From: Halobacterium sp. KA-4
GTDB lineage: Archaea > Halobacteriota > Halobacteria > Halobacteriales > Halobacteriaceae
NCBI RefSeq assembly: GCF_021028995.1
Contig: NZ_JAJJZG010000009.1
Span: 1 to 64,000 of the forward strand
Direction: 5' to 3'
Length of the DNA stretch: 64,000 bases
The notes under the pieces were generated by a model. The model was not told the origin of the DNA. It saw only the letters and a list, made by a program, of their open reading frames with translations, and did not search any database. Positions 4,693-29,804 of this stretch are shown piece by piece; the stretch's first letter is position 1; each line of letters opens with the position of its first letter. Both the position numbers and the translations under genes were made by a program.

Positions 4693-5637
4693 CTACTCCG
4701 TTGAGGTGCGCCCACCTGCGGAGCCGCCAACGCCGGGAATTGCGACGCGCTTGCGAACCCATTCCATTGTCGTGGTCGCCGACAGCACGAGCAGGACGTA
4801 GACGACGGCTGCCAGCAGGAACAAGTCGAGGAAGCGGTAGTTGTCGTAGGCGGCGCTCTCGGCGGCGTGGTAGAGTTCGGCCACCGTGATGAACGACGCC
4901 AGCGAGGAGTACTTCACGAGGTAGACAAGCTCGTTGGTCCACGACGGAATTGCGAACCGGAGCGCCTGGGGCAACACGACGTAGCGAATGCCCTGCAGTT
5001 GGGAGAGGCCGATTGCGCGTGCAGCCGTTAGCTGGCCAGGGTCGACGCCCTCGATAGACCCACGGATGTACTCGGCCTGGTAGGCGGCACTGTTAATGGT
5101 GAACCCGATGATGGCGACCCATACCGCTTGCGCGGGGACGATGCCGCTGCCGACGAAGGGGATGGCATTGATCCACCCGGAGAGTGGGAGTGCGTAGTAC
5201 AGCACGAACAGCTGCGCGAGCAGTGGCGTCCCGCGAATGAGTTCGATGAACCCAAGCGATATCCAGCGGGTAATGCGGCCGTACACGCGGGCGGCGGCCA
5301 GCGGCACCGCGAGCACAATCCCGAACACGATGCCCAGCGTCGTGAGCACAACGGTGAGCCACGCGCCAGCGGCGAGATCGGGGAGGTACGTCATCGCAAA
5401 CGAGATGGAATCGAGCGCGCTTGCAACCCAGCCGACCGGCACGCCGACGATTCCCAGACTAGCCGCGGTGTCGCCGATGACGGAGGCGGCGTCTGCGACC
5501 GGTTGCGGGTCGAAGAACGGCTGGCCGGCGGGGACGAACACGCCGCCGAACCAGTCGTTGAGCAAGCGCGCAGAGAACCACACCCAGAAGGCGGCGAGGA
5601 TTCCGTCCCGGACGAGCCGCTGCGTACTCCGGCTCAT
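4693..5637 (-). CDS. Polar amino-acid ABC transporter, permease (long form)
   Basis: 314 residues, HisM/GlnP family. About six membrane helices. The EAA-type cytoplasmic loop reads [22 protein letters not shown] around residues 200-221, the contact for the ATPase. The N-terminal ~70 residues add one extra membrane helix and an extracellular segment compared with the 228-residue partner. Fourth and last gene of the operon: its ATG overlaps the ATPase stop by four bases. The two permeases probably form a heterodimer. The substrate (polar or charged amino acid) is inferred from family. Confidence 0.92.
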
Positions 5638-26811: not shown

Positions 26812-26886
26812 GGGTTGGTGGTCTAGTCAGGCTATGACACCTCCTTGACATGGAGGAGGTCGGCGGTTCAAATCCGCCCCAACCCA
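26812..26886 (+). tRNA. tRNA-Val (GAC)
   Basis: 75 bases, complete cloverleaf: acceptor GGGTTGG pairs with CCAACCC, discriminator A, anticodon stem CCTCC/GGAGG with loop TTGACAT (anticodon GAC), T-arm GGCGG-TTCAAAT-CCGCC. No intron and no encoded CCA. Its 3' end is duplicated imperfectly about 135 bases downstream. Confidence 0.96.
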
Positions 26887-26955: not shown

Positions 26956-27042
26956 GGCGGATTTGAACTTCTGCAAGACGCAGCGCGAGCGATGTCGAGT
27001 GACCGTCTTGCTCCAATTCACAATCCGCCCGAACCCATCCTC
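26956..27042. repeat. tRNA-Val 3'-end duplication and inverted copy
   Basis: Bases 27018-27042 repeat the tRNA-Val 3' part from the T-loop through ATCCGCCC-AACCCAT-CTC with a few changes. A second, inverted piece, GGCGGATTTGAA, lies at 26956-26967 and is the left arm of an imperfect inverted repeat (26956-26980 against 27004-27029). Duplicated tRNA 3' ends are the usual footprint of site-specific integrases; the 135-base interval leaves no room for an element, so this is probably a relic att site. Confidence 0.55.
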
Positions 27043-27143
27043 CGACGCGCACGCCGACGAGCACCGCGTAGCGTGTGCGAGTCTCGTCGTATAACAAATC
27101 CCGGGGAAGCCTCTTGTTCCCGTAGGCGATTGCAGAGGTATCG

Positions 27144-27464: not shown

Positions 27465-27498
27465 TCAAGCTGTCGGGCGACGAGGAAACGGATATGAG

Positions 27499-27507
27499 TC
27501 TACCGTC
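27499..27507 (+). promoter_or_regulatory. Half-site TCTACCGTC before the TetR gene
   Basis: Nine bases identical to the left half of the operator in front of the aldehyde dehydrogenase gene (29789-29797). It lies between a TATA-like GATATGAG and ATG 27522. The right half is not recognisable. It suggests weak autoregulation by the TetR protein. Confidence 0.4.
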
Positions 27508-27521
27508 CCAAGAGAACAGTA

Positions 27522-28136
27522 ATGAGCGACGCAGACGGAATCGTCGAGCCAAACGACACCCGCGAGGAGATTATGGAAGCGACCTTCCGGGCACTCAGCG
27601 AGCACGGGTACAAGGACCTCCGGGTCCGGGACATCGGCGAGGAGATGGAGCTGTCGCGGCAGGTCATCCACTACCACTTCGACGGGAAGTACGACCTGCT
27701 GTCGTCGTTCCTGGAGTACATCATCGACCAGTACGAGGGCAGCGTCGAGGTCGCCGACGACATGGACCCGCGGTCGGAGTTGGACGCGCGCATCGACCAG
27801 TGTCTGTTCGGGCCGGAGTTCGACGAATTCACGCACTGGGACCGCATGAAGGTGTACCACGAACTGTACGCACACGCGCAGAACGACGACGAGCACCGCG
27901 AACTCTTTGAGGAGCACTACGCGCGGCTCCGCGGCAGCATCGTCGACGTCATTGAGGACGGCATCGAGCAGGGGGTCTTCCGCGACGTGAACGCCGAACG
28001 GATGGGGCAACTAATTACGGACGTCATTCACGCGGCCCGCGAGCGCCGCATCTCACTCGGGCACGACGACGCGCCCGAGGAAGCCCGCGCGGCCATCGAC
28101 GAGTTCGTGCTGGACTCGCTCGAACGCGACAACTAA
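27522..28136 (+). CDS. TetR/AcrR-family transcriptional regulator
   Basis: 204 residues. The N-terminal TetR helix-turn-helix spans ~12-60: TREEIMEATFRALSEHGYKD, LRVRDIGEEMELSRQVIHYH, FDGKYDLLSSFLEYII. The remaining ~140 residues are helical and acidic, forming the ligand-binding and dimer part. Downstream three promoters share the palindrome TTTACC-N4-GGTAAA, the kind of site a TetR dimer binds, and its own promoter has a matching half-site. I infer it represses the FAD protein, pirin and aldehyde dehydrogenase genes. The ligand is unknown; an aldehyde or quinone would fit the targets. Confidence 0.88.
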   Translation: MSDADGIVEPNDTREEIMEATFRALSEHGYKDLRVRDIGEEMELSRQVIHYHFDGKYDLLSSFLEYIIDQYEGSVEVADDMDPRSELDARIDQCLFGPEFDEFTHWDRMKVYHELYAHAQNDDEHRELFEEHYARLRGSIVDVIEDGIEQGVFRDVNAERMGQLITDVIHAARERRISLGHDDAPEEARAAIDEFVLDSLERDN

Positions 28137-28243
28137 GCAGCCGAGCGCCGCTACTTCTCTACTGAGCGCCGTGTCCGAGAGCGAGATACCAGTCGCTGAG
28201 CGCTACGTACTCGCTCGAAAATATCGGTGAGAATCGACCCGCG

Positions 28244-28807
28244 TTACAGTTCGGGGACGTCCGACGGCATGTCGAAGTCGTGGTAGTACTCGCCCTTCTC
28301 CTTCGAGAGAATGTCGAGCACGGCGGCCGCGCCGTCGCCGACGGCGATGGCGGCCTGCCACTTCGTGTCGCGGCCCATCGCGCCGGTCGCGTAGACGCCG
28401 TCGACGGACGTCTGCATGTCAACGTTCACGTCGACGACCTCCTCGTCGGTGAAGTCGCAGCCGAGATCCTCGGCGAGGTCGCGGTTGCCGCCGGTCGCGA
28501 GGACGACGTAGTCGGCCTCGTACTCGCCGTCCGCGGTCGTGAGGGCGAAGCCGTCACCGGACTGCTCGACGGCGGTAACTTCCTCGTCCTCGTGGAGGTC
28601 GGCGCCGCGGGCCTTCGCCTGCTTCTGCGCGATTTCGACGAACGTCATCCCGTCGATGGAGCGGACGCCCGGGTAGTTGAAGAGGTGGGCCTTGTGCATC
28701 CACGTCTCGTCGGTGTCGAAGACGACGGTGTCGAGGTCGTTCTTCGCGGCGAACTGTGCTGCGGACAGGCCGGCGGGACCGCCGCCGACGACTGCTACGT
28801 CTACCAT
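28244..28807 (-). CDS. FAD-dependent oxidoreductase, single-domain thioredoxin-reductase-like
   Basis: 187 residues from ATG 28807; an upstream start would cover the operator. The dinucleotide fold VVGGGPAGLSAAQFAAKND binds FAD, LATGGNRDL is the second FAD motif, and TSVDGVYATGAMGR the C-terminal FAD signature of the TrxB family. Full TrxB is ~310 residues; here the NADPH domain and redox CxxC are absent, leaving only the FAD half. Electrons must come from elsewhere or the protein is a sensor. The palindromic operator overlaps its TATA region. Confidence 0.82.
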   Translation of the reverse strand: MVDVAVVGGGPAGLSAAQFAAKNDLDTVVFDTDETWMHKAHLFNYPGVRSIDGMTFVEIAQKQAKARGADLHEDEEVTAVEQSGDGFALTTADGEYEADYVVLATGGNRDLAEDLGCDFTDEEVVDVNVDMQTSVDGVYATGAMGRDTKWQAAIAVGDGAAAVLDILSKEKGEYYHDFDMPSDVPEL

Positions 28808-28838
28808 GGGCGTGTGTCGGTGCTGCCGGAGGAAGTAG

Positions 28839-28854
28839 TTTACCATCTGGTAAA
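28839..28854. promoter_or_regulatory. Palindromic operator upstream of the FAD protein gene
   Basis: TTTACC-ATCT-GGTAAA, a perfect inverted repeat. On the reverse strand its GGTAAACTA overlaps the probable TATA box, 28-34 bases before ATG 28807, so a bound repressor would block initiation. Its match with the sites at 29675 and 29789 defines a shared motif. Confidence 0.75.
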
Positions 28855-28912
28855 ACCCGGCGAGGGTTGCCGAGTAACGGTCAGCGAGGCCGCAAAACCG
28901 ACGCTCCCGCCT

Positions 28913-29662
28913 TCAGAGTACGAACGGGCCGCGCTGCTGAATCGGCTCGTCGTGGGGTTGGCCGGCGACGGCGACCACGCGGAGGTCGGACTCGTTACGG
29001 AGTTCGACCGTGGTTTCGTCGGTGACCGTGAAGACGTTGCCCTCCTCAAACTCGCTGCCGGCGACCGTCCCCGTGCCGGAGACGCCGTAGACGAAGCCCG
29101 TCCAGTCCTCGGGAATCGTCCACTCCCACGCGTCCGACACGCGGACGTCCAAATATTCCATCGGCGTGTGGAGTGAGAGCGGCGACCCGTCGCCGACGAC
29201 GGTCGTCACCGTCGCGCCCTCGTACTCCTCGGTGGGCAGGTCGGCCTGCGTGGCGTCGACGTAGTCCGGGTCAGCCTCCTTCTTCGCGCGCGGGAGGTTC
29301 ACCCAGAGTTGGAGACCGTTGCAGCCGCGATTCCCGGCCGGGAACTCGGAGTGGCGGATGCCGCTCCCGGTCGTGATACGCATCGCGTCGCCCTCCTCGG
29401 CGACGTTGCTGACGCCTAGCGAGTCCTCGTGGTCCATCCCGCCGTCGACCATGTAGGAGACGATTTCGAAGCCGCGGTGGGGATGCATCGGGAACCCCTG
29501 GTCGGGGTCGATGTAGAACCGCTCGAAGAGCACGAACGGGTCGAGGTTCGCGGGGTGGTTGTTCGTCGGGAACGCGCGATTCGAATTCACGCCCGTGCCG
29601 TGTCGGACTCGTTCGCCGGGAACGGGGCCGTCGGGCAGCTGCTGGCCGTCGTTGGCGTTCAT
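28913..29662 (-). CDS. Pirin-family cupin protein
   Basis: 249 residues. The metal-binding cupin motif HPHRGFEIVSYMVDGGMDHEDS, with two His and a further His/Glu set (GIRHSEFPAGNRG), is in the N-terminal half. The second cupin domain lies C-terminal (PEDWTGFVYGVSGTGTVAGS). Pirins are iron proteins; several degrade quercetin or act as redox-sensing cofactors. The operator at 29675-29690 covers its promoter, placing it with the FAD protein and aldehyde dehydrogenase. Separated from the FAD gene by ~105 bases, with its own promoter. Confidence 0.92.
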   Translation of the reverse strand: MNANDGQQLPDGPVPGERVRHGTGVNSNRAFPTNNHPANLDPFVLFERFYIDPDQGFPMHPHRGFEIVSYMVDGGMDHEDSLGVSNVAEEGDAMRITTGSGIRHSEFPAGNRGCNGLQLWVNLPRAKKEADPDYVDATQADLPTEEYEGATVTTVVGDGSPLSLHTPMEYLDVRVSDAWEWTIPEDWTGFVYGVSGTGTVAGSEFEEGNVFTVTDETTVELRNESDLRVVAVAGQPHDEPIQQRGPFVL

Positions 29663-29674
29663 GGCTCTCCTTTG

Positions 29675-29690
29675 TTTACCAAGCAGTAAA
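29675..29690. promoter_or_regulatory. Palindromic operator upstream of the pirin gene
   Basis: TTTACC-AAGC-AGTAAA, one mismatch from a perfect inverted repeat. On the reverse strand it covers the likely TATA (TTTTACT, ~23-30 bases before ATG 29662) down to the start region, where GGAGAG could serve as a ribosome site. Confidence 0.7.
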
Positions 29691-29788
29691 ACAGGTCCGG
29701 TGGGGGCGTCGTTCTCCCACTCCGCGCGGACCTGTTCGCTGGCTGTGAATCGGCGGACGTCACTCCATCCCGCCCGCTTTTACGCTAT

Positions 29789-29804
29789 TCTACCGTCTGG
29801 TAAA
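29789..29804. promoter_or_regulatory. Palindromic operator upstream of the aldehyde dehydrogenase gene
   Basis: TCTACC-GTCT-GGTAAA, one mismatch from the consensus. It sits between the TATA-like CTTTTACG (29777-29784) and ATG 29811, over the expected transcription start, the position of a classic repressor site. Confidence 0.72.

Follow-up and report, generated by a model that had tools for sequence, protein, structure and literature searches.

Next to a TetR-family gene of Halobacterium sp. KA-4 lie genes for an FAD oxidoreductase, a pirin and an aldehyde dehydrogenase (ALDH) whose promoters share one palindrome, which raises the question of whether the regulator reads this palindrome and what it controls through it. 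The window, the whole stretch of DNA that was analysed, comprises 64,000 nt (GCF_021028995.1, contig NZ_JAJJZG010000009.1, positions 1–64,000) of a 3.34 Mb genome in 55 contigs, and the genome-wide scans were pattern searches. The sequence-only reading had placed TTTACC-N4-GGTAAA in the three promoters, and all copies are found exactly there, one of them perfect (TTTACCATCTGGTAAA, FAD gene) and two with one mismatch (TTTACCAAGCAGTAAA, pirin gene; TCTACCGTCTGGTAAA, ALDH gene; Table 1). Under an order-1 Markov model of the window, 0.010 sites with ≤1 mismatch are expected per 64 kb and the probability of at least three sites in one given kb is ~7e-13. Genome-wide, five sites occur at ≤1 mismatch, three of which are in the window, compared with two for the reversed control pattern. 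At ≤2 mismatches the count is at background (25 versus 22 for the reversed control), and therefore only the sites with ≤1 mismatch are meaningful.

Table 1. Coordinates of the genes and of the predicted regulatory elements of the TetR cluster (window positions).
Feature	Position	Strand	Remarks
BRE/TATA-like promoter of tetR, GAGGAAACGGATATG	27482..27496	+	conserved as GAGAAACC-GATATG in many relatives with target set A (see text)
TetR/AcrR-family regulator, 204 aa	27522..28136	+	predicted to bind palindromes; Pfam TetR_N 4e-10, TetR_C_6 1.5e-8
Single-domain FAD oxidoreductase, subfamily A, 187 aa	28244..28807	-	resembles the FAD half of thioredoxin reductase
FAD gene operator (predicted)	28839..28854	-	reads TTTACCAGATGGTAAA in the direction of the gene; 31-nt gap to ATG
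Pirin family protein, 249 aa	28913..29662	-	Pfam Pirin 1.3e-22, Pirin_C 3.2e-14
Pirin gene operator (predicted)	29675..29690	-	ends 12 nt before ATG; overlaps TATA-like TTTTA
TATA-like element CTTTTAC of ALDH promoter	29777..29783	+	conserved in ALDH upstream sequences
ALDH gene operator (predicted)	29789..29804	+	flanked by the TATA-like element and the ATG, with a 6-nt gap to the latter
Aldehyde dehydrogenase, 496 aa	29811..31301	+	Pfam Aldedh 1.8e-159

The TetR_N domain (PF00440) of the regulator scores 39.8 bits against a curated cut-off of 24, and its AlphaFold2 model, built without alignment rows from plasmid records, contains nine helices with a pLDDT of 86.5 and matches TetR regulators in the PDB. 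It is not identified as BetI, the choline-responsive TetR regulator, since TIGR03384 reaches 45.0 bits against a cut-off of 201.3. Nor is the FAD protein a canonical thioredoxin reductase: it matches TIGR01292 (1.6e-28) with 99.4 bits, below the cut-off of 343.45, and neither a CxxC motif nor the NADPH domain was found in its sequence. Both cupin domains of the pirin are recognised (PF02678, 80.3 bits; PF05726, 53.6 bits), and no other pirin is found in this genome at E ≤ 1e-20. For the ALDH substrate, no NCBIfam equivalog cut-off is reached among the matches listed. On the other side of the regulator gene, tRNA-Val(GAC) (26812–26886) is followed by a 13-nt inverted copy (26956–26968) and by a 24-nt stretch that repeats the 3´ end region of the tRNA (27022–27045, 88%), possibly a tRNA remnant or an old integration scar.

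Orthologues of this TetR (57–100% identity; next matches ≤44%) occur in 121 of the 392 genomes of the order, and the nearest named relative of the locus is that of Halobacterium sp. CBA1126. The motif was refined from 191 target-gene sites to TTTACC-R-NN-Y-GGTAAA, in which the central R is a purine and the central Y a pyrimidine in 99% of the sites, although neither position was used for site selection. The refined site at ≤1 mismatch is present in 120 of the 121 genomes with an orthologue and in 68 of the 271 without (Fisher p~5e-50), and the perfect TTTACC-N4-GGTAAA in 80 of 121 versus 14 of 271 (p~1e-37), both p-values overstating independence because the genomes are related by descent; the TetR tree itself mixes haloarchaeal families. 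The mean number of refined sites per genome is 2.7 with the orthologue and 0.29 without (329 versus 79 in total). The 41 TetR genomes that lack a perfect site have sites with one mismatch only, apart from one genome with none. At most TetR orthologue loci read, the palindrome lies within a few kb, and no site was found within 1.5 kb of TetR paralogues (≤42% identity). Conservation upstream of orthologues had been set beforehand as the test that could refute the idea; it was run, and the idea survived. Comparative genomics thus firmly ties the palindromes, as predicted operators, to the neighbouring TetR. One further match, C4:43695 (locus L002, TTTACCTTCTGGTGAA), which adjoins an ammonium-transporter-like gene, was rejected as an operator: it falls within the coding sequence of a PII-like protein and does not follow the R-NN-Y pattern.

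Two sets of genes accompany this regulator, and no gene other than tetR is shared by the two kinds of motif-bearing locus. Set A comprises FAD-A (the subfamily in the window), pirin, ALDH, doxX, an HTH protein (DUF7347/DUF7351) and a Rieske protein, often near sod, while set B comprises an amidohydrolase before an FAH-type hydrolase, a TatD-like protein, a BNR-repeat protein, a CoA-transferase III and sometimes a VOC protein. By parsimony, three changes between A and B are needed on the TetR tree. Both sets carry sites near tetR in two genomes (G371 and G279) and in trans in three Halorubrum-like genomes (G029, G271 and G066). Sites are also found far from the regulator when the target genes are: tetR is located at 1.56 Mb and the FAD/pirin/ALDH genes with three sites at 2.58 Mb in G009, the two are on different replicons in G246, and lone pirins with sites occur away from tetR. 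In the sister species G011, the ALDH gene and the ALDH site are both missing. Other trans sites in haloarchaea (L285 1683, L286 1678 and L294 1647) precede a second pirin, doxX and an Fe-S assembly gene, the last being called ErpA-like by resemblance only.

The fourth site of the genome under study (TTGACCAGATGGTAAA, C10:33557–33572, L003 1501–1516) is outside the window, between doxX and a zinc alcohol dehydrogenase gene, 100 nt before doxX. It is kept in two sister species, G011 (with two doxX copies) and G008, and is likely a fourth operator; more distant doxX genes have no site. The compact regulon proposed for this cluster is supported for the FAD, pirin and ALDH genes and was incomplete, as it left out doxX on another contig and the catabolic set of other haloarchaea.

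The distance between site and start codon is nearly constant within each gene family. Among genes with a site at ≤1 mismatch, it is 31 nt for 40 of 42 FAD-A genes, 34 nt for 38 of 41 amidohydrolase genes, 31–34 nt for all 26 BNR genes, 11–12 nt for 19 of 22 pirin genes and 4–6 nt for all nine ALDH genes (11 read); the site ends 12–13 nt before the ATG in each of the seven HTH genes, of eight cases in all, that carry one. The sequences upstream of the FAD and pirin genes are little conserved beyond the site and a TATA-like element. FAD-A (≥75% identity) was found in 44 genomes, all with TetR, and a site with ≤1 mismatch precedes 42 of about 45 FAD-A genes. The single-domain FAD proteins include a second subfamily, B (G000:C52:20723–21274, compared with 28244–28807 for A), which is nearly universal in haloarchaea. 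None of 20 sampled upstream regions of these FAD-B paralogues contains a site with ≤1 mismatch; one FAD-B gene has a palindrome with two mismatches (TTGACCGCCTGGTCAA) 32 nt before its ATG, in a TetR-orthologue genome (G206). Some pirins next to sod in TetR-bearing genomes also have no site. In many set-B loci (e.g. L103 ~4908–4942), the main operator is accompanied by another palindrome, TTAACC-N4-GGTCAA, at a spacing of 19 bp; in many amidohydrolase promoters this second, weaker box, with the sequence TTAACCTCTTGGTCAA or a variant of it, follows 19 bp downstream.

Each full site had been said to overlap a TATA box or a start site, which is correct for the pirin site only. Inspection shows that the ALDH site overlaps neither CTTTTAC nor the ATG and that the FAD site is located just upstream of its own TATA-like element, over the BRE position. 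The in-frame ATG at 28846, inside the palindrome, was rejected as the FAD start in favour of 28807 because a stop codon separates the two in several orthologues. Before tetR, the half-site TCTACCGTC (27499–27507, +) is present, with its right half missing. It is conserved only within the closest Halobacterium, drifts in relatives and never has a second half, and its reading as an autoregulatory operator has to be given up; the conserved element is the BRE/TATA-like one, GAGGAAAC-GGATATG in this genome. Many TetR repressors are autoregulated, but no full operator precedes tetR in this genome, and at set-B loci the upstream region of tetR is shared with the amidohydrolase operator. What stands of the TetR-palindrome regulon is the co-occurrence, the fixed FAD/pirin/ALDH spacing and the sites in trans, without the half-site operator.

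The regulator is distinguished from its paralogues in both domains. In the DNA-binding domain, R46, I49 and G55 are fixed in the orthologues and mostly different in the paralogues. Cys94, in the motif CLFGP, is invariant in 93 of 93 orthologues and replaced by Leu or Ala in most paralogues, and several His, Asp and aromatic residues are likewise invariant in the orthologues and absent from most paralogues. The invariant Cys, His and Asp of the ligand domain, at residues 94, 105, 113, 132, 167 and 170, could form a metal or ligand pocket, and Cys94 together with other invariant residues would fit a thiol-based or ligand-pocket sensor.

We propose that TetR is a dimeric repressor that would recognise TTTACC-R-NN-Y-GGTAAA and act in trans on a few promoters, which in this genome are predicted to be those of FAD-A, pirin, ALDH and doxX. 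It would occlude the BRE at the FAD gene, the TATA element at the pirin and HTH genes and the TATA-to-start stretch at the ALDH gene, and a small molecule would release it, so that genes for detoxification and breakdown are switched on. Binding of the TetR protein to the predicted sites is very probable. Given binding, repression is the mode that we would expect with good confidence because the operators occupy blocking positions, and the joint claim, that TetR binds and represses at these sites, appears likely. The leading candidate for the ligand would be an electrophile of the aromatic, quinone or aldehyde type, or a product of its breakdown, for which the case is evenly balanced; the gene content is consistent with an aldehyde- or quinone-responsive regulon. 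On a haloarchaea-wide scale, a single-Cys TetR and one strictly conserved operator may join an electrophile/quinone detoxification set to an aromatic-type breakdown set, a proposal that could fall either way. About equally open to success or failure is its evolutionary part, in which the target set has been switched repeatedly around a fixed protein-DNA pair, within a previously undescribed regulon.

TetR might instead bind and activate some genes, perhaps in a dual function, at the FAD, amidohydrolase and BNR-type promoters. The site has a fixed place there over the BRE, directly before the TATA-like element, and archaeal activators also use positions upstream of TATA, such as those of the sites at the FAD and amidohydrolase genes; the tandem second box in many amidohydrolase promoters would also accord with activation. 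However, the same operator covers TATA or the TATA-to-start stretch at the pirin, HTH and ALDH genes, where binding could hardly avoid blocking, occupation of the BRE would keep TFB off as well, and the second amidohydrolase box is located over or downstream of TATA, so that activation is unlikely. The palindrome could also be read by another factor, such as the HTH protein with DUF7347/DUF7351, whose own gene carries the site in seven of eight cases and is near tetR in several genomes, leaving TetR as a linked passenger. This is very improbable, as most loci with the motif and TetR have no HTH gene, TetR is shared by both cluster types and has the site in all but one of its genomes, and a 16-bp inverted repeat with N4 suits a TetR dimer. 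There is hardly any probability left for the palindromes being chance or promoter architecture, a TATA/BRE composite: TTTTA and GTAAAA do look like TATA and BRE elements, but sites are nearly absent above background in genomes without TetR and their placement relative to TATA differs from gene to gene, which already refutes this explanation as far as sequence can.

A further alternative shares the repressor-operator mechanism and differs in the ligand, which, instead of being an electrophile as such, would be one particular metabolite from the amidohydrolase/FAH/CoA-transferase pathway; pirin, ALDH, FAD and DoxX would then be further steps of the same catabolism or protection during it. The catabolic cluster shares the TetR/operator pair, the site precedes both sets in Halorubrum genomes, and FAH-type hydrolases and CoA-transferases take part in the breakdown of ring-cleavage products. 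The genus of the window, however, mostly has the redox set only, and this set, with the nearby SOD, Rieske protein, nitroreductase and DoxX, resembles electrophile-stress regulons. We regard a pathway metabolite as possible but rather doubtful, for the ligand and for the accompanying view of the redox genes alike.

Operator and regulon are known for only a few transcription factors of archaea. In the present case, sequence allows the regulator, its operator and its targets to be named with high confidence throughout the haloarchaea, Haloarcula and Halorubrum species among them, and a role is predicted both for the pirins of archaea and for an FAD protein that is widespread but uncharacterised. 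If the ligand is confirmed, the system would show in what way aromatic electrophiles are dealt with by haloarchaea; it would also provide a clean natural example of a protein-DNA pair that stays fixed while the target set is exchanged. No published description of this regulator, operator or regulon was found in the open literature, nor did anything relevant turn up there that links a TetR of haloarchaea to pirin or to this motif.

Regulons of TetR proteins are already known in kind. The closest solved structure, PDB 3CRJ of a Haloarcula marismortui TetR protein (TM 0.85, 32–33% identity), was considered as that of an orthologue; at about one third identity it is a paralogue, without the conserved Cys and without the conserved DNA-binding residues. 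OxsR of Haloferax volcanii comes from the haloarchaea as well. This thiol-based regulator controls the oxidative stress response (PMC9426492); it belongs to the TrmB family and is unrelated to the TetR described here. The well-studied archaeal case is FadR_Sa of Sulfolobus acidocaldarius, a repressor of the TetR family that has semi-palindromic operators and binds at just four sites in the genome (PMC6449355); in contrast to the haloarchaeal TetR, it controls fatty acid metabolism in a crenarchaeon. NemR of Escherichia coli (nemRA-gloA) is a TetR-family repressor for the detoxification of quinones, glyoxals and reactive chlorine that senses through cysteines, including the conserved Cys106 (PMC5297802). 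The haloarchaeal TetR is of the same family and has one invariant Cys94 with a putative sensing role, but this is a single cysteine compared with six in NemR, the target genes are different, and no NemR model is among its NCBIfam matches. The small quinone regulons of MhqR, YodB/CatR and QsrR in Bacillus and Staphylococcus contain reductases, nitroreductases and ring-cleavage dioxygenases (PMC6798810), to which the FAD oxidoreductase, nitroreductase, VOC protein and DoxX are comparable, whereas their regulators belong to the MarR and DUF24 families and use other operators in bacteria. The resemblance to the bacterial quinone and electrophile regulons is one of working and not of membership.
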